This document shows, piece by piece, positions 4,322-23,643 of a stretch of 23,643 bases of DNA. The notes under the pieces were generated by a model. It was not told the origin of the DNA. It was given only the letters and a program-made list of their open reading frames with translations, and searched no databases. The position numbers were made by a program, and so were the translations under genes. This DNA is from a virus, in IMG/VR virus record IMGVR_UViG_3300010885_030372, positions 1 through 23,643 of that record; one strand, 5' to 3'. Position 1 is the first letter of the stretch, and each line of letters starts with the position of its first letter.

Positions 4322-4774
4322 ATGCCGATATACGAATACCTTTGTAAAGCCTGCGGCTTGAAGTTCGAGAAAATGGTCTCGGTCAAAAAGTCCGAGGAAA
4401 AGGTCAAGTGCGAATGCGGCACCGAGGCCGAAAAGCTCATGTCAACCTTCGGATTCGCTTTCTCCCACAAGCCTGTAAACGGTCCCGTGCCGCAAAATAC
4501 AGGAGTCCACAGCGTCGATTATAATTACGACAAGGTAATCGGACGGGACGCGGAGCAGAAGTGGAAGGTGATTGAACAGCGCGACAAGGCCAAGGACGAG
4601 GCCATCCGTGACGCTCGGCGCGAGGGCAAGAACGTCACGTCGCGTGATCAGTTGGTCGGAACGGCTGAAGGCGGCTATCGCCCGATTACTGAACCGGAGC
4701 GGGTCGCCGCCAATCAGAATCGAGCGGTCGCCAACGACATCAACAAGGCGTTGTCGAAGGGCAAGAAGCCTTAA
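4322..4774 (+). CDS. FmdB-family zinc ribbon protein
   Basis: 150 residues, ATG with GGAGG about 10 bases upstream. The N-terminus MPIYEYLCKACG, then FEKMVS, is the diagnostic FmdB/CxxC zinc-ribbon opening. Metal ligands would be C8, C11, C30 and C32. The second knuckle is C-x-C rather than the usual C-x2-C. The remaining ~110 residues are charged (K/E/D/R-rich) with no recognised domain. FmdB ribbons are common small regulatory or accessory proteins in bacteria and occur in phages; their role is unclear. The gene is divergent from the sheath gene and convergent with the next gene: the two stop codons share the palindrome CTTAAG. The function here is not assigned beyond a zinc-ribbon protein. 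Confidence 0.85.
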   Translation: MPIYEYLCKACGLKFEKMVSVKKSEEKVKCECGTEAEKLMSTFGFAFSHKPVNGPVPQNTGVHSVDYNYDKVIGRDAEQKWKVIEQRDKAKDEAIRDARREGKNVTSRDQLVGTAEGGYRPITEPERVAANQNRAVANDINKALSKGKKP

Positions 4775-4788
4775 GCGGCTTTTTTATT
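4764..4788 (+). terminator. Candidate intrinsic terminator after the FmdB gene
   Basis: AGAAGCC (4764-4770) can pair with GGCTTTT (4777-4783, including one G-T pair) around a six-base loop TTAAGC, followed by TTATT. The FmdB stop codon lies in the loop. The run of six A residues on the other strand may make it work both ways for the convergent gene. The U tail is short, so strength is uncertain. Confidence 0.45.
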
Positions 4789-5268
4789 ATGCGCCGCGTC
4801 GATGGCCCGCTCGATGATCGCCACCCCGTTATCGACGATTTCATCGACGAGACGGTGCGGGAACCCGCCGCGCCAATTAATCATGTCGTTCAAGTTTTCG
4901 CGGGCGAGTTCGGACACTCGCTCCTGAAGCGAGGCGTAAGCCTCGCTCACGACCTTGGGATCAACCGTGTTGGCGATGTCCCGCAGGCCCGCCATCAAAA
5001 CGGCGTTCGGGGCGTTTTCCATCTCTTCCGCGTAAAAGTTGACGGTGCGGAAGATCGCGTAGTTGAGGTACTCCGTGGCCGTCAAAAGGCATCTCGTAGC
5101 CGGAGCCTCGATGGTGTAACGCACCCCGTATCGAGCGAACAGCCTGTCGAGCAGGCTGTCGAGAAACAAGGGCACGTCCGGCCCGTAAACCCACTTCACG
5201 TCGGGCTGGTAGCCCGCGCAGAAGTGGTGGGCGATATCCTTGAAAACCTTGTTGCCGTCAACACCCAT
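4771..5268 (-). CDS. Uncharacterised phage protein, paralogue A
   Basis: 165 residues from ATG at 5266-5268, chosen because AAGGGG lies 6 bases upstream; the longer frame to 5346 would run through the promoter-like element at 5297-5341. No known domain recognised. It is clearly paralogous to the gene at 5343-5837: both share RT--FY--EMEN near the middle, then LQERVSELARENL-DMI, FP---VDE and GV close to the C-terminus. Predicted largely alpha-helical and soluble. Cys residues are few and not arranged as a metal site. Its own upstream two-block element suggests separate transcription. Tandem duplication is the likely origin (inference). Confidence 0.8.
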   Translation of the reverse strand: MGVDGNKVFKDIAHHFCAGYQPDVKWVYGPDVPLFLDSLLDRLFARYGVRYTIEAPATRCLLTATEYLNYAIFRTVNFYAEEMENAPNAVLMAGLRDIANTVDPKVVSEAYASLQERVSELARENLNDMINWRGGFPHRLVDEIVDNGVAIIERAIDAAHNKKAA

Positions 5269-5296: not shown

Positions 5297-5341
5297 TTAC
5301 ACCATCCAGACGATTGACGACCGTATCGAAAACCGAAAATC
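5297..5341 (-). promoter_or_regulatory. Two-block promoter-like element, copy 3 (upstream of paralogue A)
   Basis: Read on the minus strand: GATTTTCGGTTTT, 16 bases, CGTCTGGAT, then GGTGTAA. It lies in the 74-bp gap between the paralogues, about 28 bases before the ATG at 5268. Spacing is identical to the other copies. Layout and spacing resemble promoters of alternative (ECF-like) sigma factors, with a -35-like first block and a CGTC-type -10-like second block. Confidence 0.65.
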
Positions 5342-5342
5342 G

Positions 5343-5837
5343 TCAATCCCTCATCGAAGCCGCAATATTGTCGATGCCGTGGTCGAGCGCCTTCACGCCG
5401 CGCTCAAAAACCTCGTCGACATACTCATTCGGGAACCGGCTTTTACCGAGGATCATGTCGCCCAAGTTCTCGCGGGCGATTTCGCTGATTCGCTCTTGCA
5501 GCACGACGTAGACCTTACGAACCAGCAGGTCGTCCAGCGAATCCGCAATCAGCCGCAAGCCGTTGATGACCGCGGGCGAAGGATCATTCTCCATCTCAGC
5601 CTTGTAAAAGGCCAGAGTCCGGTCCACGATTTGATGAAGGTATTTGCCCGCGGGCAAATCCGGATCAACGTACTCATATTCCGGAAACCGGATTCCGTTC
5701 AGGTCGAATAGTCCCTTCGTCAGCGACTCGATCAGAATGTGAACGTCACTCAGATACGCACCACGCGGATCGACCTTGTCTAAGAGACAAGGGGAAAACT
5801 CCCATGCGATTCTCCGAAAGATTAAGTTACCTACCAT
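5343..5837 (-). CDS. Uncharacterised phage protein, paralogue B
   Basis: 164 residues from ATG at 5835-5837, preceded by AAAGGAG at good spacing; a TTG one codon earlier is less likely. No known family recognised. The C-terminal half aligns well with paralogue A (RTLAFYKAEMEN, LQERISEIARENLGDMI, FPNEYVDEV-ERGV). The N-terminal halves have diverged much more. Predicted alpha-helical, without a signal peptide or membrane segment. It is preceded by two tandem copies of the two-block element within the divergent gap 5838-6013, so it seems to be the first gene of a short unit. Confidence 0.8.
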   Translation of the reverse strand: MVGNLIFRRIAWEFSPCLLDKVDPRGAYLSDVHILIESLTKGLFDLNGIRFPEYEYVDPDLPAGKYLHQIVDRTLAFYKAEMENDPSPAVINGLRLIADSLDDLLVRKVYVVLQERISEIARENLGDMILGKSRFPNEYVDEVFERGVKALDHGIDNIAASMRD

Positions 5838-5871
5838 CAAGACTCCTTTCAGTACCGGGTCATTACAACCC

Positions 5872-5915
5872 CTACACTATCCAAACGATTAGTAACCGCT
5901 ATAAAAACCGAAAAT
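5872..5915 (-). promoter_or_regulatory. Two-block promoter-like element, copy 2 (proximal, upstream of paralogue B)
   Basis: Minus strand: GATTTTCGGTTTT, 16 bases, CGTTTGGATAGTGTAG. About 35 bases upstream of the ATG at 5837. Its first block overlaps the end of the second block of the distal copy, making a tandem pair. Confidence 0.65.
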
Positions 5916-5955
5916 CGACACGAATTTATATAGGTTGAAAAACCGAAAATCGACA
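5903..5955. repeat. Direct 18-bp repeat pair in the divergent gap
   Basis: The 18-base sequence AAAAACCGAAAATCGACA occurs at 5903-5920 and again at 5938-5955 without mismatch, 35 bases apart. These are the complements of the first blocks of the two minus-strand elements plus flanking bases. Confidence 0.85.
5914..5951 (-). promoter_or_regulatory. Two-block promoter-like element, degenerate distal copy (copy 4)
   Basis: Minus strand: GATTTTCGGTTTT, 16 bases, CGTGTCGAT, 7 of 9 matching CGTCTGGAT. The first block is identical to the other minus-strand copies and the 16-base spacing is kept. The AGTGTAA extension is absent, so it may be a weak or decayed promoter, or a regulator site. Confidence 0.4.
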
Positions 5956-5973
5956 TTCGTTTTTTCGGTTTTT
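5938..5973. repeat. Inverted repeat joining the divergent elements
   Basis: AAAAACCGAAAA (5938-5949) is the exact reverse complement of TTTTCGGTTTTT (5962-5973), with 12 bases between. The two arms are the first blocks of the distal minus element and of the plus-strand element. The symmetry may simply reflect back-to-back promoters, or may mark a regulator site. The gap 5838-6013 holds no gene. Confidence 0.7.
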
Positions 5974-6004
5974 TCGGGGCAAGCCGAACGTCTGGATAGT
6001 GTAA
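5960..6004 (+). promoter_or_regulatory. Two-block promoter-like element, copy 1 (plus strand)
   Basis: TTTTTTCGGTTTT, 16 bases, CGTCTGGATAGTGTAA, directly before the small plus-strand gene. The ribosome site AAGGAG (6003-6008) begins inside the AGTGTAA tail. The transcript must therefore start at or before about 6002, so the -10-like part should be CGTCTGG (5989-5995), not GATAGT. Confidence 0.65.
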
Positions 6005-6013
6005 GGAGATCAA

Positions 6014-6190
6014 ATGAGTACGCGATTCGTAATCGGTTTTGTTTTATTAGCCGTTGGATTTACTGCGTTTGCAGCGGCTCCTCGTGAGCCGAGTAATATC
6101 GTCGTCGTCGACGGCGCGGAGTACGAGGTACTACCAACGCCCAATGGCGTAATCCTAATTAATCGAAAGACGGGTAAGGTCTTGCCGTGA
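6014..6190 (+). CDS. Small exported or membrane-anchored protein with N-terminal signal segment
   Basis: 58 residues: ATG at 6014-6016 with AAGGAG 5 bases upstream, stop TGA at 6188-6190. The N-terminus has Arg4 and a hydrophobic stretch VIGFVLLAVGFTAFA followed by AAP, a good Sec signal peptide with an A-x-A type cleavage site. The predicted mature part is about 35 residues and includes VVVDGAEYEVLPTPNGVILI and NRKTGKVLP. No family recognised. It sits immediately after the plus-strand two-block element and overlaps the next gene by GTGA, implying co-translation. An envelope-directed role is possible but is inference. Confidence 0.75.
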   Translation: MSTRFVIGFVLLAVGFTAFAAAPREPSNIVVVDGAEYEVLPTPNGVILINRKTGKVLP

Positions 6191-6447
6191 ACAACGCGGC
6201 ATGGCTAGAAAGAAAAGGCTTCGTCCCCTACGGCTCAGGGTTTCGTGGGGACGTCGGCCCTTATGCTGTTCACGTCTTTCCGTACTTGGACGGACGTGAG
6301 TGGGAGGCCGTGGACCCCGTCGCATCCGTGACGGGTCATGGTGAAAACCCGCAGGAGGCGTTGCTCGACCTTATCGAGAGCATGGAGTCGCGGAAAGCGC
6401 GATTGAGTGCGATGATAAGGTTGATGCGGGAATTCGTTAGCGAATAA
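6187..6447 (+). CDS. Small uncharacterised protein, translationally coupled
   Basis: 86 residues. GTG start at 6187-6189 overlaps the upstream TGA (GTGA), so translation is probably coupled; no independent ribosome site is seen. The first ~60 residues (MNNAAWLERKGF, GPYAVHVFPYLDG, EWEA, GENPQEALLDLI) look like a small alpha/beta domain and the last ~25 form a charged helix. No family recognised. The 3' end overlaps the convergent virion gene by 11 bp. A six-base-stem hairpin (TCGAAA/TTTCGA, 6450-6467) lies just downstream but lacks a U tail. Confidence 0.7.
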   Translation: MNNAAWLERKGFVPYGSGFRGDVGPYAVHVFPYLDGREWEAVDPVASVTGHGENPQEALLDLIESMESRKARLSAMIRLMREFVSE

Positions 6448-7663
6448 TCTCGAAAGACCGATTTCGATTAACGAAGAACGGGTCGCGTATGGCGACCAAG
6501 TTCAAATTCTGATATACGAAGAACTGCGAAGGCGATCCGGTTTCAAACAACTGATCGTCCGTCAATCCGGCCACGGATTGTTCCTCGGCCACCGTGCCGG
6601 GGATTACGCGATTGGCTTCCCAATTGAGCGGGAAGTGCATGGACCAATCGGTCTGGATCGTCATGCTGATCGAAGACGTGTAGAAGTAGTCGTCGGCGTT
6701 TTCGTCGTAGGCTTCCTCGGCCTCACCGCCCATGCTGACGGACATGATTTCAACGCCCTCGTTGGAAAGTCGTCCGCGCAGGTCCGAATACAAGAACAAA
6801 AGGGTCCGGTCTGTGACCTCGCCCGTGGAGAGAACGTCGCGGGTCATCAAGTCCAAGTCGACGTTGATTTCCCATCGACCGCCGTATTCCAGAGCGCAAG
6901 CCTCACGGGTACGGCCAATCACGACGGTCTGAATGTCCCCGTCCTGAACCCTGCGACCAAACGCGAGCACCACGCCAGGAATCGCCGCGTTGTTGGAACC
7001 GTTGGCGGGTGCCAGAAAGGGTCCACGGCTTTCCCCAGCATACCGATAGTCTACGGACAGGTAGTTTTTGGGGTTAACGGGTTGGGCGAGAGTGATCTGC
7101 CCGTTCGTCGGGTCGGACGTGTAGTTAATGCCCTCGTACATTAGGATATTGCCGGGCATTTCGTACACGCGAAGGCTCCCAGGGTGAAAAGTCCCTTGGG
7201 CGACTTCGTATAAGCGTGGGCCTAAAGAAATCGGGCGTTCATCGAGAACTTCGAGGAGCGGGTCTACATAAAAGACGTTTTGCTCGGAAGGGGTGGGCTC
7301 ACCGTAGAGTTCCCGCCTGACCTCTATATAATAGACGCCGGGCAAAGAAGGGAACGTGCCTCGATTACGCTGAATGGCGAGAGCGTCCTCGCGCACCCAT
7401 TCGATTGACGTGCCGTTCTTGCCCAGGACATTCGCCAGATTGCAGTACGAAACGACCACGCCCTGATAGTGATCGGCACTCAGGATTTGCGGGTTCGCAC
7501 TTGCGCCCTTGACGATGATCGCCTGTTGGGGCCGTTCACGAAACGAGTATCGGCCTTGGATGTTCGGTACTAGGGTGTCACGGTAGTTCGGGTCCAAGGA
7601 CCAAAAATGCCGTAACTCCTGCAAGATGCGGCGTTTAACCGCCTCCGTCAGATTAGCGAACAT
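6437..7663 (-). CDS. Phage virion structural protein (tail/baseplate region), 408 aa
   Basis: 408 residues, ATG at 7661-7663, 12 bases after the stop of the upstream gene. The protein is beta-rich with many aromatic and Pro/Gly turns. The N-terminal helix (VKRRILQELRHFW) is followed by YSFRERPQQAIIVKGAS. A central piece (TNGQITLAQPV, then LSVDYRY) resembles the repeat unit of the sheath protein. No signal peptide or enzyme motifs. Co-directional with other putative virion genes, so a neck, tail or baseplate part is likely, but the exact role cannot be read from the sequence. Confidence 0.7.
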   Translation of the reverse strand: MFANLTEAVKRRILQELRHFWSLDPNYRDTLVPNIQGRYSFRERPQQAIIVKGASANPQILSADHYQGVVVSYCNLANVLGKNGTSIEWVREDALAIQRNRGTFPSLPGVYYIEVRRELYGEPTPSEQNVFYVDPLLEVLDERPISLGPRLYEVAQGTFHPGSLRVYEMPGNILMYEGINYTSDPTNGQITLAQPVNPKNYLSVDYRYAGESRGPFLAPANGSNNAAIPGVVLAFGRRVQDGDIQTVVIGRTREACALEYGGRWEINVDLDLMTRDVLSTGEVTDRTLLFLYSDLRGRLSNEGVEIMSVSMGGEAEEAYDENADDYFYTSSISMTIQTDWSMHFPLNWEANRVIPGTVAEEQSVAGLTDDQLFETGSPSQFFVYQNLNLVAIRDPFFVNRNRSFEIIR

Positions 7664-8528: not shown

Positions 8529-9344
8529 TTAGGCTTTCGAATTTATGAAAGATATTAGTCTTTGAAGTCTCGAACTCGACATGCTATTGCATGCCTCCGT
8601 TATCCCTTCAAGATATTCGCTGACCTCAGATATTAAAAAACCTTTAGTGGTATTCGAGAAATCGTCACGATGATTGCCCTCCATCATAAACTTTTTTCTC
8701 TCTTCTAGCAACCTATCCCCGATTTCGTTTAGAGAAGAAGAAGCGACTCGGCAAAGAGTCCCCTCTTTCCGTATAAGCTCGTCAAGGGCTTCTTCAAAGG
8801 CCATAATAGCAGCTTTTACTTTGTGATCGAGGTACGGGTTAGAGTCAATCTCTGAAGCATTGCGCCGATGCGCCTTCTTCTTAAATTTATCGCCGTACTT
8901 CTCTTTATTAGCCTGCCAATCGTCCTGGACTTCCTCGTCCTGAGTCGCAAGCCACTTTTCAAATCCAGCCGTATCGCCCTCGGCGAAACGGGCTTTCTTC
9001 TTAAATTTATCGCCGTACTTTTCTTTGTTAGCCTGCCAGCTTTCTTGAATGGACTCGTCCTGAGTCGCAAGCCACTTCTCGAAACCAGCCGTATCGCCCT
9101 TACTAAAGCGGGCGAACTTCCATTTCCTTAACATAGCCTGCTTGGTCAGGTCCAAAGCGGGACCAAGCTCGCCGTCAATCTGAGCATCCTGAAGCTGCTC
9201 AAAGTTTTCCTGCGTGAAATGGTCATCCATCCACGGCTCGTCGCTATCCAGCGTCTCAATCGGGCCGGAAACAGGCTGGCCGATTTCATGGGCGTCGAAG
9301 TTCGCCCGACGACGAAGATTGGCTGTTTCAACGGGAAGTCGCAT
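8529..9344 (-). CDS. Uncharacterised protein with 40-residue tandem repeat
   Basis: 271 residues, ATG with AGGAG 5 bases upstream. The N-terminal ~75 residues are acidic. Residues 78-117 and 118-157 form two 40-residue units, 34 of 40 identical (core GDTAGFEKWLATQDE, WQANKEKYGDKFKKK). The C-terminal ~110 residues are helical (KVKAAIMAFEEALDELIRK, EIGDRLLEERKKFM). The basic, aromatic repeat might bind nucleic acid or another virion part, but this is inference. No family recognised. The C-terminal part from about 8529 to 8720 is more AT-rich than the neighbours, which could mark a separately acquired domain. Confidence 0.75.
   Translation of the reverse strand: MRLPVETANLRRRANFDAHEIGQPVSGPIETLDSDEPWMDDHFTQENFEQLQDAQIDGELGPALDLTKQAMLRKWKFARFSKGDTAGFEKWLATQDESIQESWQANKEKYGDKFKKKARFAEGDTAGFEKWLATQDEEVQDDWQANKEKYGDKFKKKAHRRNASEIDSNPYLDHKVKAAIMAFEEALDELIRKEGTLCRVASSSLNEIGDRLLEERKKFMMEGNHRDDFSNTTKGFLISEVSEYLEGITEACNSMSSSRLQRLISFINSKA
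8874..9113 (-). repeat. Two 120-bp tandem repeats
   Basis: Unit 1 is 8994-9113 and unit 2 is 8874-8993, exactly 120 bp each, encoding residues 78-157 of the host gene. Long identical blocks such as TTAAATTTATCGCCGTACTT recur at 8881 and 9001 on the plus strand. The high DNA identity suggests a recent duplication or ongoing gene conversion. Confidence 0.95.
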
Positions 9345-10125: not shown

Positions 10126-10746
10126 TTAGGCGACGACATAAATCATAGGATCATTCCAAGCACTACGTTGGACCTGCTTCATAATATTCAAATGCGCGGC
10201 AACGTGCTTGAACAGGGCGACGTAATTATCCATGCCCCGCATCCCCTCAAGTGCCCGAAGGGTGCGAAAAAACCTATGGCGAACGTAGCCTTGGGTTACG
10301 TCTAAATTACGAGCCACCGTGCTTTGACAGGTCGAATCGATCATTTCGAGCATGATTCGAACGTCAATAGGGTCTGATATTACGGATCGCAGATCGGCTT
10401 CGATTGTTTCCGAATCATATTCGGGCATCGTAAGCACATACTTGATGCGAGTCGCAGCGCGGCGCAGTCGGTAGCAGACCGTCGGTTGGCTTACGCCAAA
10501 TAAATCGGCGATTGCGGATTGCCGCAGCCGTTGGAAGAAATAAAGTTCGAGGTAGTCGGCTTCCCGTGGATGCAAGTAAGAAAGAGCATCGCGGACCTTC
10601 GAGAAGTCTGCCGCCCGATCCTCGCGCAACGCCTCAACGAAGGTCAAGTCGGAAGCCGCGATTGCGTCTTCATTGGAGAACACCGCTTCCAAGTCAGCGG
10701 GGTCCATGACCACATGGCTATTCCAGAAACTATCACTCATCGTCAT
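10126..10746 (-). CDS. Sigma-region-4-like protein with two HTH segments (candidate phage sigma/transcription factor)
   Basis: 206 residues. Residues 58-105 read as a classic sigma70 region 4: LHPREADYLELYFF, IADLFGVSQPTVCYRL, then RAATRIKYVL. A second HTH-like unit follows at 127-169 (VARNLDVTQGYVRHRFFRTLR). There is no visible region 2, which binds the -10 element and core polymerase; this favours a small regulator or divergent phage sigma such as the T4 gp55 type rather than a complete sigma70. ATG at 10744-10746 with AAAGGG upstream; a second ATG at 10740 is possible. It overlaps the end of the NusG-like gene by 14 bp, so the two are coexpressed. It would act in the cytoplasm on promoter DNA and RNA polymerase. 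Confidence 0.75.
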   Translation of the reverse strand: MTMSDSFWNSHVVMDPADLEAVFSNEDAIAASDLTFVEALREDRAADFSKVRDALSYLHPREADYLELYFFQRLRQSAIADLFGVSQPTVCYRLRRAATRIKYVLTMPEYDSETIEADLRSVISDPIDVRIMLEMIDSTCQSTVARNLDVTQGYVRHRFFRTLRALEGMRGMDNYVALFKHVAAHLNIMKQVQRSAWNDPMIYVVA

Positions 10747-11365
10747 TATCCCTTTCTAATGTATCAAATTCTTGATCATTATAGCTGGGGTAAATCTCAG
10801 AAGGTGAATCGAAACCTAAAACACCATCTGCGGGACGAAGTGAATAGCGTGGGAAAACGCGAACCGTCTCAATCGTTCGCATTTTGATTAATACGAAAGC
10901 ATCATCACCGTGTACGTCAACGACTTTTCCAATAAGACCTTTATGTAGACCATCGTAAACTCGAACTTCGCTATTAATCTCAATCTCGCGGGAGATCATC
11001 TGGCGAAGGCGCGTTTGCAGGTCCAAGACGGACCTATTGGGCACGGGCGTCAAGACCCGACCTACCCCTGAACGATTTTGGGATAGGGCCGTCTTGATGT
11101 TCGGACTCTTGTTGCCGAGCCCGAAATACGTCGTATCAGGCAATCCCGTAGCAACGAAGGCGTACCCTTCGATGACGTTGATGACGGATCGGCGTTTGTG
11201 CCGAATGATCACCGTGTACGGGACGAATATCGGATGGTCCTCGGGACAATCCAGAACGCTGCGAAGATGGGCGTCTAAGTCGCCCTCTTCTGCGAGTCGT
11301 TCACCAGCGTCCGTTAGTTCTAAAACGACCCAAGTGAGGTCGTCACGTTGATCCCGTTCCCGCAC
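10733..11365 (-). CDS. NusG-like transcription elongation/antitermination protein
   Basis: 210 residues, GTG start with GGAG 8 bases upstream. An NGN-like N-terminal domain spans about residues 10-125: it opens TWVVLELTDAGERLAEE, has IFVPYTVIIRHKRR where NusG has its P-----R-GK segment, then EGYAFVATG in place of FPGYVFV, then GVGRVLTPVPN. A KOW-type domain follows at 133-178 (EVRVYDGLHKGLIGKVVDVHG). NusG binds RNA polymerase and modulates pausing and termination. The acidic tail (residues 185-210) is extra. The gene overlaps the clamp-loader gene by 23 bp and the sigma-like gene by 14 bp. Assignment rests on motif order; a NusG paralogue acting on phage late transcription is inferred. Confidence 0.75.
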   Translation of the reverse strand: MRERDQRDDLTWVVLELTDAGERLAEEGDLDAHLRSVLDCPEDHPIFVPYTVIIRHKRRSVINVIEGYAFVATGLPDTTYFGLGNKSPNIKTALSQNRSGVGRVLTPVPNRSVLDLQTRLRQMISREIEINSEVRVYDGLHKGLIGKVVDVHGDDAFVLIKMRTIETVRVFPRYSLRPADGVLGFDSPSEIYPSYNDQEFDTLERDNDDE

Positions 11366-12695
11366 CTGTTAATCTCCGATAGTGGAAACCAACAAGGTTG
11401 CGGAAAGCATCGGCGTCGAGTGCCGTTGCAGGGACAGACGTATTATTTTGGACGCGACGATTCGCGGCACCGCCACCAACGGCTCGCGGGTCAACTTGAA
11501 CAACGGCGTTTGCAGAGGGCTTTGGAGCATTTATGCCTACATTACCCGCAGGCATAACTTTTTCAGGCACGGCGGAAACAGACGTTGGTGCGGCCTTGGC
11601 GACCGACACAATCACCGCCTCCGAAGAAACCCCATGCACGACGCCATTGTGTAGGGCCACGGAATCGAGCAACAACGTATGGGAGGTCGGTCTCTTAGGC
11701 GGGGCCGAAAATCGGGAACTGAGCGCGAGTAACTGCGCCCCCTTTTCCGCAAGGGCTTTGATTCGGTCTTGCGGCCAATGGGCCTGAATCTTACCGACGC
11801 CGATGTGCGCCCGATACGCCGTAATCGAAGCCTCGGCCAATCGCTCATACGCCGAAGTCGGACTCGTCGAGTCCGCAAGTGCGGAAGCGGCACGGACAAC
11901 CGATGCCTGATCCACCCCTATCGAATCCAACAGGTCGAGGATCAAGTCGTTCGACCCAAGCCCTAGATAGGACGTGACGTTCGTTCGGGATACAGGCCCA
12001 AGCACCGACACGCCCTCAAGGGTCTTAAGGGCGTCCCGAATATGGCACTCCGTCACTTCGGCAATCGTGACCAGAGCATCGTGCTCGTAAGCGATGCCCT
12101 CTTGGGCGCAAACCCAAGCGAGTCGATCCGCGATGCCCTCGGGCGTGACGGCTTTAATCACGAAAGCGGGAGCGCACCGTGAAAAGATGGTCGATTGCAT
12201 CTTTTCAGGTTCCGTCGTACAAAAGATGCAGATGAGCTGCTTGTCTTGTGTACCCGGAATGCAATCTTCCATCGGTTTCAGCACCGCGTCAAGCGCGCTC
12301 TTGCTCAACCGATGGGATTCGTCGAATAGGTAGATGCGCCGCTTGCCCGAAAACGAAGAATACTGAATATCCTCCGTAATCTTCAGCATGTCCTCTTTGG
12401 TGGACTTGGTGGCGGCGTCTAACTCCGTGAAGCACTCGTGCTGCTTGCCCTGCAAGATTGCAAGGCAGGACTCGCATGAATCGCAGGGCTCCCCGTCAAC
12501 GGGTGCCGAGCACAACAGGGCACGGGCGAGGATTCGCCCCATTGTCGTTTTACCGGACCCGTGCTGGCCGCAGAAAACGTAGGATTGATGGTAGCCCTTA
12601 CCCTCTTTGAGCAATTGGCGCAGGACTCGAACCGACGACTCTTGACCGAGTACGTCGCCGTATTTGCGCGGGCGATATGTCGTATCGAGGGCCAC
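11343..12695 (-). CDS. dnaX: DnaX-like clamp loader ATPase subunit (tau/gamma type)
   Basis: 450 residues, GTG start with GGAG 6 bases upstream. AAA+ features in order: YRPRKYGDVLGQE (N-terminal DnaX box), Walker A GQHGSGKTT (43-51), a Cys4 zinc module with C62, C71, C74 and C77, Walker B IYLFDESH (121-128), sensor 1 CTT (159-161) and the SRC arginine-finger motif (172-174). DnaX assembles with delta subunits to load the sliding clamp at primer-template junctions. Residues after about 370 are Ala/Val/Pro-rich and poorly conserved, presumably a linker to a short C-terminal domain. A gene for a matching beta-type clamp lies about 3 kb upstream in the same operon. No delta or delta' subunit is in the window. 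Confidence 0.93.
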   Translation of the reverse strand: MALDTTYRPRKYGDVLGQESSVRVLRQLLKEGKGYHQSYVFCGQHGSGKTTMGRILARALLCSAPVDGEPCDSCESCLAILQGKQHECFTELDAATKSTKEDMLKITEDIQYSSFSGKRRIYLFDESHRLSKSALDAVLKPMEDCIPGTQDKQLICIFCTTEPEKMQSTIFSRCAPAFVIKAVTPEGIADRLAWVCAQEGIAYEHDALVTIAEVTECHIRDALKTLEGVSVLGPVSRTNVTSYLGLGSNDLILDLLDSIGVDQASVVRAASALADSTSPTSAYERLAEASITAYRAHIGVGKIQAHWPQDRIKALAEKGAQLLALSSRFSAPPKRPTSHTLLLDSVALHNGVVHGVSSEAVIVSVAKAAPTSVSAVPEKVMPAGNVGINAPKPSANAVVQVDPRAVGGGAANRRVQNNTSVPATALDADAFRNLVGFHYRRLTGAGTGST

Positions 12696-15119: not shown

Positions 15120-15757
15120 CGGCGCACAACTTCCTTGAAGGTCGCTTCGCCGTCCTTTTTGTGAATCCGGTAAGCCAAGTCCGCTTCTTCGACCAGCGTT
15201 TGACTATGGGATACTGCCAATATATCGATGCCTAACCGTTCGGACAGCAACCGCAGGAAACGGCCAACCCTCGGAACGTAGTGCTCAGCGACAGCGGCAA
15301 GGGATTCATCAAGTAGGATCAAGGGCCGAAGCCCTCTACGATGCGTGACGACAACGCGCAACAAAACGGATTGGACGGTGGCGATTGAACCACCATAGGC
15401 ATCTACGCTTGAACCTTCGATCATACCCCCTGCGTCCACTTGGGTCGTGATCAGTTCTACGGACACCTTACCCCGTTGCACGTCTACCTCTGACCTGACG
15501 GTCAGGTGCAGGTCGTCGAAAACCGCACCCAAACCCTCGGTCAAAAGCTCTTGGGCCAATTTTGCGTTGTCCACAACCTCACGGTCGATCAACGCACGAA
15601 GCACGTCCGCGACTCGGGCAAGGATCTGGTCCTCGTTCTCCAAATGCGCGATGCGGGCTTCGACTTGGCCCATTTCAGACAGAGACGCCGCACGAATCCC
15701 TGAGACTCGTGCGGCGTCCAATCGAAGGTCGTCTAGTTTTCGGATTAGTTCTTCCAC
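15116..15757 (-). CDS. SbcC/Rad50-type ATPase, C-terminal half only (no Walker A)
   Basis: 213 residues, GTG start overlapping the clamp gene by 13 bp. The N-terminal ~70 residues are coiled-coil-like (RIAHLENEDQILARVADVL). ABC/SMC features follow in order: signature-like YGGSIATVQS (121-130), Walker B LILLDES (146-152, D150 and E151), and H-loop AVSHSQ with H184. There is no Walker A in this protein. Known: Rad50/SbcC needs Walker A from an N-terminal half and signature plus Walker B from a C-terminal half. The gene at 20353-21522 has exactly the missing half. A split, two-gene SbcC is the simplest reading (inference). Confidence 0.7.
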   Translation of the reverse strand: MEELIRKLDDLRLDAARVSGIRAASLSEMGQVEARIAHLENEDQILARVADVLRALIDREVVDNAKLAQELLTEGLGAVFDDLHLTVRSEVDVQRGKVSVELITTQVDAGGMIEGSSVDAYGGSIATVQSVLLRVVVTHRRGLRPLILLDESLAAVAEHYVPRVGRFLRLLSERLGIDILAVSHSQTLVEEADLAYRIHKKDGEATFKEVVRR

Positions 15758-16890
15758 ACCAGAACCGCGAAGTAGTCGGTGGAGCCGCTTTCGACGGGGT
15801 CCTTATGACGCACGCCGATAAACCCACCCTTGCCTCGTCGGTTTACACCCAACTTCAACTCAGCAACCCCGAAAGCGTCCGCAATCGACTTCAGGTAGTT
15901 GTGCCCAACCGTGAAGCCGTCCGCGAAGGAATCACCGTTGACGATGTCACCCTTGACCGTGAGGGGGTAATCGTCCTCGCCGCCCGCGTCGGAAGGCATC
16001 GACGCAACCACGCGACCGTCGAGATACCGCAGTCGAATCGTATCGTGGTTCTTCGGGGCAGACGCCGACAAAACGCTGACCGCAGACTTGAAATCCACCA
16101 AGTCCAGCACGAATGAAGCCGCGTCCTCATTGTCGGGATTGACGTCGAGCTTGGGGAACGGGGCATTAGGACGGCTGATGCCGATGTAGCCGCCGTCAGC
16201 GCGACGGACAAAGGCGCACGCGCCACCACCGTCATTCGCGGAACGCTCAGACGTAAGCAAAGTAACGTCGCCAAGCAGCGTGTCCTTGAGGGACAGGAAT
16301 CGCGTTACCGTCGGGATATCCTTGCCCGGAATTCGCATATTCAGCTCGGGCATCGCAACGCGAACGTGCGACAGCGCACGGCGGTCGGTAGACCACAGCG
16401 TGCCCTTAACCGCCTCAATCTGACAAATCTCGGGCTTTTGCGTATCGTCCGTAGACACAAAGCACTTCGACACGTTAATCGCACGATTCAACGTGGAGGG
16501 CGCGATAGCGCCGTCGGCCTTCGCCTCGGAGTAAAGACGATCCCAATACGGGAACTTGGTCGGGTCAAGGGACCGCAGACGAATGCGGCCCTTCGTGCCC
16601 TTTGCCGTGACCTCGCCGTTGGCGTCAGACGTGATCGTGAGAACACCGTCGGCGACACCGGACAGCCATTTGTCCAAACGCCAAGCCTCGACCGTGAAAG
16701 AATCGTCCCCATCGACGTTGCACTTCAGGGGAATGCCGCTGAAGGTACGCATATCATAGGATAGAATCTCCACACCCGCGTCCGTCTTGCGGAACAGGTA
16801 ATGCGAGGATAGGTCGGTGCCAGAACCAACCGTCAGCGTGGAAACCGCGAGCGCGGACTCAAGATCAATCTTGGCGACTTCAATCTTCAT
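15745..16890 (-). CDS. dnaN: Sliding clamp, DnaN (beta) type
   Basis: 381 residues from ATG 16888-16890 with GAGGAA just upstream; a start 10 codons earlier would overlap the previous gene. It has the length and motif order of three-domain bacterial beta clamps: SSHYLFRKTDAGVEILSYD; RIRLRSLDPTKFPYWDRL (beta clamp ...L-FP--); a TDRRALSHVRVAMPEL strand pair like beta TDGHRLA; then IPGKDIPTVTRFL. It would form a ring around DNA and tether polymerase and partners. Being of bacterial type, it differs from T4 gp45. It lies 7 bp after the small coiled-coil gene and overlaps the ATPase-half gene. Confidence 0.83.
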   Translation of the reverse strand: MKIEVAKIDLESALAVSTLTVGSGTDLSSHYLFRKTDAGVEILSYDMRTFSGIPLKCNVDGDDSFTVEAWRLDKWLSGVADGVLTITSDANGEVTAKGTKGRIRLRSLDPTKFPYWDRLYSEAKADGAIAPSTLNRAINVSKCFVSTDDTQKPEICQIEAVKGTLWSTDRRALSHVRVAMPELNMRIPGKDIPTVTRFLSLKDTLLGDVTLLTSERSANDGGGACAFVRRADGGYIGISRPNAPFPKLDVNPDNEDAASFVLDLVDFKSAVSVLSASAPKNHDTIRLRYLDGRVVASMPSDAGGEDDYPLTVKGDIVNGDSFADGFTVGHNYLKSIADAFGVAELKLGVNRRGKGGFIGVRHKDPVESGSTDYFAVLVWKN

Positions 16891-23105: not shown

Positions 23106-23643
23106 TTTGTTCGTCCTGTTGAGCCTGTTGTGACCATAGGAAAAAGCGTTCATCCTCGCGGTAAATCACGCCACGCTGGACTTCTTTGCCCGCGTTCTTA
23201 CCGCGAATGAACTTCTTGACCTCGGTGAAATACTTGGTTTCCACCGCCGTCATACCCCCTTCTAGCAACTCTGAAGAAATCAGGTGCCAGAAGCGAGCGG
23301 AAAGCCGAGCGACTAAATAGGCGTCGGCCTCATTGTGGTTCCATTTCGAACCACTCGCATCGTGCATCGCGGCATCGACCATATCCTTTTTGTCCATCAC
23401 CCAACCTTTCGGACGGGCTAAGGACTCTCGGGCATGGGCCTTGACCTGCAACGGGGACCAAAAAACCACGTCGCATCGTTCAGACTTGAGGGCTTCGCAC
23501 GAGTATAAAAACAACCCGTACATCCCCTCGCTGAACAAATTGTCGAAGACGGGGAACTCGATCCCCACCCGATCAGGCTTGACCTCTCGAATCAAAGCCC
23601 GCAGGGATTCCCGTTGCGCGATGTAACGGTCTACGAACGTCAT
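23098..23643 (-). CDS. RuvC-like Holliday junction resolvase, N-terminus probably beyond right edge
   Basis: The frame is open to the window edge; an ATG occupies the last three bases, but 181 residues from there lack the first beta strand with the catalytic GxDxx Asp. Visible RuvC-type features: KPDRVGIEFPVF (E29 as second catalytic acid), then FWSPLQVKAHA, KKDMVDAA, and WNHNEADAYLVARL with the D/E pair near 104-107. RuvC-fold resolvases cut Holliday junctions during recombination and packaging. The last ~45 residues are a charged extension. It overlaps the recombinase by 8 bp. An alternative is a different RNase H-fold nuclease of the same superfamily. Confidence 0.75.
   Translation of the reverse strand: MTFVDRYIAQRESLRALIREVKPDRVGIEFPVFDNLFSEGMYGLFLYSCEALKSERCDVVFWSPLQVKAHARESLARPKGWVMDKKDMVDAAMHDASGSKWNHNEADAYLVARLSARFWHLISSELLEGGMTAVETKYFTEVKKFIRGKNAGKEVQRGVIYREDERFFLWSQQAQQDEQNG

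Follow-up and report, generated by a model that had tools for sequence, protein, structure and literature searches.

We propose that a two-block sequence element, found upstream of small genes in a huge phage and its relatives, is a promoter at which the host RNA polymerase starts with a phage-encoded ECF-like sigma factor, a reading that we consider reasonably probable. The element was found in a 23.6-kb viral fragment, the whole of which was analysed and is referred to below as the window. Gene relatedness shows the window to be part of a huge phage of ~0.5 Mb, because almost every core gene in it is related to a gene of LR745208, an uncultured phage of 485 kb. Inspection of the window genes pointed to tail sheath-like, clamp-loader, sliding-clamp-like, nuclease and RecA-like proteins. 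A 271-aa protein (window 8529-9344, minus strand) carries an internal repeat, GDTAGFEKWLATQDE...QANKEKYGDKFKKKA, twice, and the clamp-loader ORF of LR745208 (LR745208.1 420816-422702, minus strand) contains an intein-looking insert relative to window 11343-12695.

The pattern TTTTCGGTTTT-N16-CGTNTGGAT gave three exact matches and one match with 1 mismatch in the window and none elsewhere in it; 0 matches were expected from 100 dinucleotide shuffles. This agreed with the initial annotation, which had described two blocks at a fixed spacing of 16 bases and had seen no further copies in the rest of the window. The elements and the genes next to them are as follows.

4771-5268, minus strand: target gene A, 165 aa, matching no known family.
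5304-5339, minus strand: element 1, complete, an exact match upstream of gene A; block 1 (TTTTCGGTTTT) at 5329-5339, N16, block 2 (CGTCTGGAT) at 5304-5312 and a GGTGTAA extension at 5297-5303.
5343-5837, minus strand: target gene B, 164 aa (165 aa if the start is TTG), a paralogue of gene A.
5879-5914, minus strand: element 2, complete, an exact match upstream of gene B; block 1 at 5904-5914, block 2 (CGTTTGGAT) at 5879-5887 and an AGTGTAG extension at 5872-5878.
5914-5949, minus strand: half element with 1 mismatch, block 1 intact and the second block lost (CGTGTCGAT).
5950-5961, no strand: 12-bp centre of a divergent pair (TCGACATTCGTT).
5962-5997, plus strand: element 3, complete, an exact match upstream of the 58-aa gene; block 1 at 5962-5972, block 2 (CGTCTGGAT) at 5989-5997 and an AGTGTAA extension at 5998-6004.
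6014-6190, plus strand: target gene for a 58-aa protein with a hydrophobic N-terminus; its orthologue in the related contig G002 (23073-23249) has an element of its own.
6187-6447, plus strand: 86-aa gene overlapping the 58-aa gene.

The distance from the end of block 2 to the start was 35 nt for gene A (element 1, ATG), 38-41 nt for gene B (element 2, TTG or ATG start) and 16 nt for the 58-aa gene (element 3, ATG at 6014), where a ribosome-binding site lies directly 3' of the extension. The placement just before three starts was thus as first described. Transcription from element 3 is predicted to start near 6000-6004, and the 86-aa gene is probably co-transcribed with the 58-aa gene.

Four copies had originally been counted, with an AGTGTA(A/G) or GGTGTAA extension. 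Three are complete and carry the extension; the fourth is only a half element, in which the place of the second block is taken by CGTGTCGAT, most of which belongs to the CGATTTT flank upstream of the element next to it. Its PWM score was 11.5 bits, versus 58-60 bits for the other three. In G002, an intact divergent pair lies at the same spot (23281-23316/23329-23364), and 10 of the 12 bases of its centre (TCGACATTCACT) equal those in the window (TCGACATTCGTT). Since both block 1 and the 12-bp centre match this intact pair, the half element reads as the decayed divergent partner promoter of element 3. One member of the G002 pair (23329-23364, plus strand) is intact, faces no ORF and is antisense to an FmdB-like gene; it is probably an orphan promoter, left after gene loss or preceding gene gain.

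The unrelated spacers had been taken as evidence against simple duplication. The spacers have indeed diverged, but duplication took part: genes A and B, the two minus-strand targets, are paralogues (40% identity), so a gene was probably duplicated together with its promoter, and the blocks then stayed fixed while the spacer changed. Gene A is 31% identical to a gene of contig G003 (39178-39693) that bears the same element 25 nt upstream. A search with gene B returned no relatives in viral contigs, yet a distant homologue exists in G003. The paralogy of A and B and the G003 homologue with its element indicate, at the level of sequence, that genes and promoters travel together.

We found 19 full copies of the element in five related viral contigs (G000-G004), all 19 of them intergenic. 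An ORF began 16-39 nt after block 2 in 16 of the 19 copies; of the remaining three, one had its ORF at 65 nt, one lay near a contig end and one faced no gene. The core was CGGTTTT-N15-CCGTYTGGAT and the consensus of the window clade was GNCGATTTTCGGTTTT-N13-RACCGTTTGGATGGTGTAAG, with nearly invariant blocks and a nearly random spacer. The reversed sequence gave 0 matches, and a BLAST comparison with named phages returned only chance matches of 22 nt.

The elements of the window lie in an island of small genes that is missing at the same place in two relatives: the 86-aa gene directly follows the FmdB-like gene in G005, and a 408-aa gene directly adjoins it in LR745208. The island of G002 differs in composition from that of the window. 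Such coming and going of units, together with an identical spacer in two G001 copies, would fit elements that are mainly part of a mobile, copied cassette or serve recombination, with no role in transcription. We regard this as highly improbable, because spacers otherwise diverge while the blocks stay fixed, orientation and distance to the starts are strict, the downstream genes are unrelated, and elements of the same geometry occur in phages without these genes.

Divergent copies stand back to back, with a gap of 11-12 bp from block 1 to block 1 in all pairs, and thereby form an inverted repeat, AAAACCGAAAA-N11/12-TTTTCGGTTTT. This repeat, and an information content that is high for a promoter, might instead mark binding sites for a phage regulator, either an activator or a repressor, beside ordinary promoters. 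The element, however, consists of two directional blocks at a sigma-like spacing, its geometry is kept across phages, and in several copies a ribosome-binding site directly follows block 2, leaving no obvious room for a second promoter. Regulator sites of this kind are therefore very unlikely in our estimate.

For comparison across huge phages, we recovered ~80 further contigs through a region-4 protein of the window (described below) and fetched nine, several of them partial; G027, G031, G022, G028 and G029 were left out of the motif analysis. In LR745208, de novo enrichment of upstream k-mers identified 56 copies of CGATTTCRCTAAAAAGT-N11-GCCGATAGG. Seeding with k-mers yielded a strongly enriched private element in six of the nine fetched contigs, and dyad analysis yielded one in G007; neither method revealed a clear motif in G006 or G008. 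In total, eight further relatives, ranging from nearly complete genomes down to a 113-kb fragment, each had their own enriched bipartite upstream element in 8-67 copies, against 0 in the reversed-sequence control of every genome. All share one geometry, in which a private -35-like block is followed after ~17 bp by a semi-conserved -10-like NCGTA. Aligned on the -10-like 5-mer, the elements are as follows.

Window clade: TTTTCGGTTTT..ACCGTTTGGAT
G007: TGGTTGGAGC..CCGTA
G017: TGGGGTTG..TCCGTATA
G011: AGGGTTCCC..GACGTAA
G015: GGGGGGTTCAACTC..CTCCGTATA
G014: GACTTACTT..GCGTAGAT
G038: GGGCTTATTT..GAGTAGTCTA
G023: GTAAACTTTT..CGCGTAGA
LR745208: CTAAAAAGT..GCCGATAGG

Four sets (window clade, G007, G017 and G011) have GGTT-N17-NCGT in common, letter for letter. 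In seven large sets, 87-100% of the sites were intergenic, and sites upstream of starts were far commoner than strand-flipped ones (51 versus 5 in G017, 43 versus 9 in LR745208). Genes conserved between phages were depleted among the pooled targets (odds ratio 0.40, p 2.7e-7), and the regulon therefore consists mainly of accessory genes. Taken singly, only LR745208 and G014 showed this trend clearly, and the G017 targets include replication-type genes. Taken together, location, orientation, fixed spacing, the 19 copies in relatives and the same-geometry elements in eight more phages or fragments strongly support the promoter reading put forward in the initial annotation. As it had also stated, the element is unlike sigma70 promoters (TTGACA-N17-TATAAT), with neither the TTGACA nor the TATAAT hexamer within its conserved columns.

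No family of the beta or beta' subunits of RNA polymerase was detected in 11 records, so the host polymerase is likely used. The same result is compatible with a rival reading in which an alternative sigma factor of the host, of the ECF or sigma-28 type, recognises the promoters, the differences between phages then reflecting differences between hosts. The -10-like CGTA core is ECF-like, and the LR745208 element exactly matches TAAA-N15-GCCGATA, the sigma-28 (FliA/WhiG) consensus, so that for this phage a host sigma is conceivable. A search for similar promoters in host genomes, as had been suggested, did not bear this out. Among 84,980 bacterial and archaeal genomes, in which the hosts may be missing, the strict scan with the extended pattern gave 0 matches and the relaxed scan with the window core gave two isolated single matches, in unrelated species and near chance; a host regulon was rejected as a candidate. 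The LR745208-type element occurred in only two IMG/VR contigs, that of the phage itself and one more. The host-genome scans and this rarity favour a phage-specific reader. Moreover, the information content of the elements is very high, and the phages encode a sigma-like protein of their own. A host sigma factor as the reader thus appears unlikely.

Two sigma-related proteins came into question as the phage-encoded reader, of which the first lies in the window.

10126-10746, minus strand: tandem sigma-70 region-4 protein (PF04545, 1.2e-11).
10733-11365: KOW/NusG-like protein.

The structural model shows the region-4 protein as two sigma-4-like HTH units in tandem. We favoured it at first as the reader of the variable -35-like block, alone or with a region-2 protein, since its sigma region-4 domains are clear and it is encoded in the same window. 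Alignments and helix lists showed, however, that both recognition helices are near-invariant across ~80 huge phages while the -35-like blocks differ, which makes it an unlikely reader of that block. In addition, G005 encodes the protein at 85% identity and has no element in its 43-kb fragment. We set this candidate aside as quite improbable. Its gene adjoins the clamp-loader and NusG-like KOW genes; by analogy, the protein could possibly be a late co-activator like T4 gp33 that works with the sliding clamp. LR745208 encodes a second region-4 protein (LR745208.1 153904-154695, plus strand), an extra paralogue.

The second sigma-like protein has a region 2 and a C-terminal HTH, and was found at these places, among others.

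G001 15421-16308: candidate sigma.
G003 5881-6768: candidate sigma.
LR745208 74150-74884: candidate sigma.

In G001 and G003, its gene and the elements lie on one contig; the gene is absent from the 23.6-kb window. It was present in 7 of 8 searched IMG/VR records over 288 kb and in LR745208. The exception was the G011 record (288 kb, maybe incomplete), though the G011 motif is clear. The protein gave sub-threshold matches to Pfam Sigma70_r2 and Sigma70_ECF; in three members, PF07638 (Sigma70_ECF) spans r2-r4, below the cut-off. Matches to PHROG 1740 (RNA polymerase sigma factor) reached down to 2.9e-6. The AlphaFold model (pLDDT 83, pTM 0.37) contains an extra N-terminal beta domain, and its five best PDB matches were all ECF sigma entries, although weak (E 0.12-0.37, probability 0.33-0.66). 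Together with the geometry and the clade-wide -10-like NCGTA core, these fold matches, with their weak E-values, support the ECF-like reading given initially. G023 encodes a further region-2 protein (265388-266230, plus strand), an extra paralogue.

Region 2 of the candidate sigma is conserved (mean entropy 1.19 bits), whereas the HTH is hypervariable (2.42 bits). Between phages with different motifs, identity was 44-92% in region 2 and 5-63% in the HTH. The G042 sigma, which is 84% identical, goes with a kept window motif, and two further sigma-bearing contigs, L268 and L269, have G007-type and G015-type elements, respectively, near their sigma genes. One trio is awkward: the motif is common to L269 and G015, with 47% identity between their HTHs, but differs between G007 and G015, for which the figure is 63%. 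The pairing of HTH and motif is suggestive at the sequence level. A comparison of sigma distance with motif distance was dropped as proof of recognition, because shared descent gives the same result and one trio contradicts it.

We therefore return to the promoter with a phage-encoded ECF-like sigma factor. In its layout, 15 unconstrained bases would separate a -35-like CGGTTTT, whose extended upstream form is CGATTTTCGGTTTT, from a -10-like CCGTYTGGAT, and a conserved start region, GGTGTAAG, would follow. A sigma of the G001/G003 type, whose gene would lie outside the 23.6-kb fragment, may read the element, with region 2 contacting the -10-like block and the hypervariable HTH contacting the -35-like block. 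A conserved region 2 beside a hypervariable HTH would explain why the phages share the NCGT(A) core and the geometry but have private -35 blocks. Host RNA polymerase with this sigma would then start at the element and produce short accessory-gene units, often divergent from paired promoters. A good sigma-70-like promoter (of the TTGACA-N16/17-TAtAaT type) lies 59-66 bp upstream of the sigma gene in 3 of 22 loci (L277, L284 and L292), with only 0.5% of random stretches scoring as well; nothing comparable was seen at the remaining loci. At these three loci, a cascade from host sigma-70 through the phage sigma to a private regulon is plausible.

For the takeover of transcription by uncultured huge phages that lack an RNA polymerase of their own, a process little understood so far, the nine phage sets offer a candidate system at the sequence level, with defined putative promoters and a candidate reader, and the element provides a rule that predicts which phage genes form one regulon. 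More broadly, this clade of huge phages may possess an unrecognised ECF-like sigma family, with a fast-evolving helix that reads the -35 block, a kept region 2 and private promoters for dozens of accessory genes per lineage, possibly stopping co-infecting relatives or cassettes from sharing expression; the constant tandem sigma-4 protein would stand alongside. We see the chances of this wider picture as evenly balanced. The series of putative sigma-promoter pairs, natural variants with one geometry and different specificities, lends itself to working out how DNA is recognised by sigma region 4 and to building orthogonal expression tools.

Jumbo phages without a polymerase are believed to rely on homologues of sigma factors that act at promoters specific to the phage (PMC13282480). 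Minimal and RpoD-like sigmas as well as gp33 appear in a comparative jumbo-phage survey, which makes no mention of ECF sigmas (PMC7824862). We found no published ECF-like phage sigma family with per-phage promoters in the literature outside subscription papers and preprints. Phage sigmas paired with cognate promoters have been described before; an ECF-like version in which the promoters differ from phage to phage is apparently undescribed.

The ECF promoter consensus has AAC in the -35, a CGT-containing -10 and a spacing of ~16-17 bp. The elements resemble it in CGTTTGG/CGTCTGG in the window, in NCGTA in most relatives and in the constant spacing of ~16-17 bp. AAC is present in the -35 of G023 (GTAAAC) and G015 (CAAC) only; the window-clade -35, CGGTTTT, is without it, and the -35 block is private to each phage. 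Like ECF (group 4) sigmas, the candidate has a region 2 and a C-terminal HTH; it differs from ECF sigmas in being phage-encoded, in its extra N-terminal beta domain and in family matches below curated cut-offs. Compared with sigma-28 promoters, the window element is without both boxes of TAAA-N15-GCCGATAA, and the agreement is limited to CCG and the general geometry.

Phage sigma-like factors such as T4 gp55/gp33 and SPO1 gp28 and gp33/gp34 divert the RNA polymerase of the host to the promoters of the phage; their relatives in jumbo phages are covered by PMC7824862 and PMC13282480. As expected of a phage sigma/promoter pair, the candidate sigma gene and the elements occur in the same phage here (G001 and G003). 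The consensus promoters of T4 and SPO1 are unlike the element, and here one sigma family with per-phage promoters can be traced over a clade. The start-associated sequences of cluster K mycobacteriophages and the promoter cassettes of T4-like phages are likewise directional elements that lie directly before small genes and travel with cassettes. The elements described here share their conservation, their direction and their position directly before small-gene starts; their sequences are unlike, and a candidate sigma family and its per-phage divergence can be traced across the clade.
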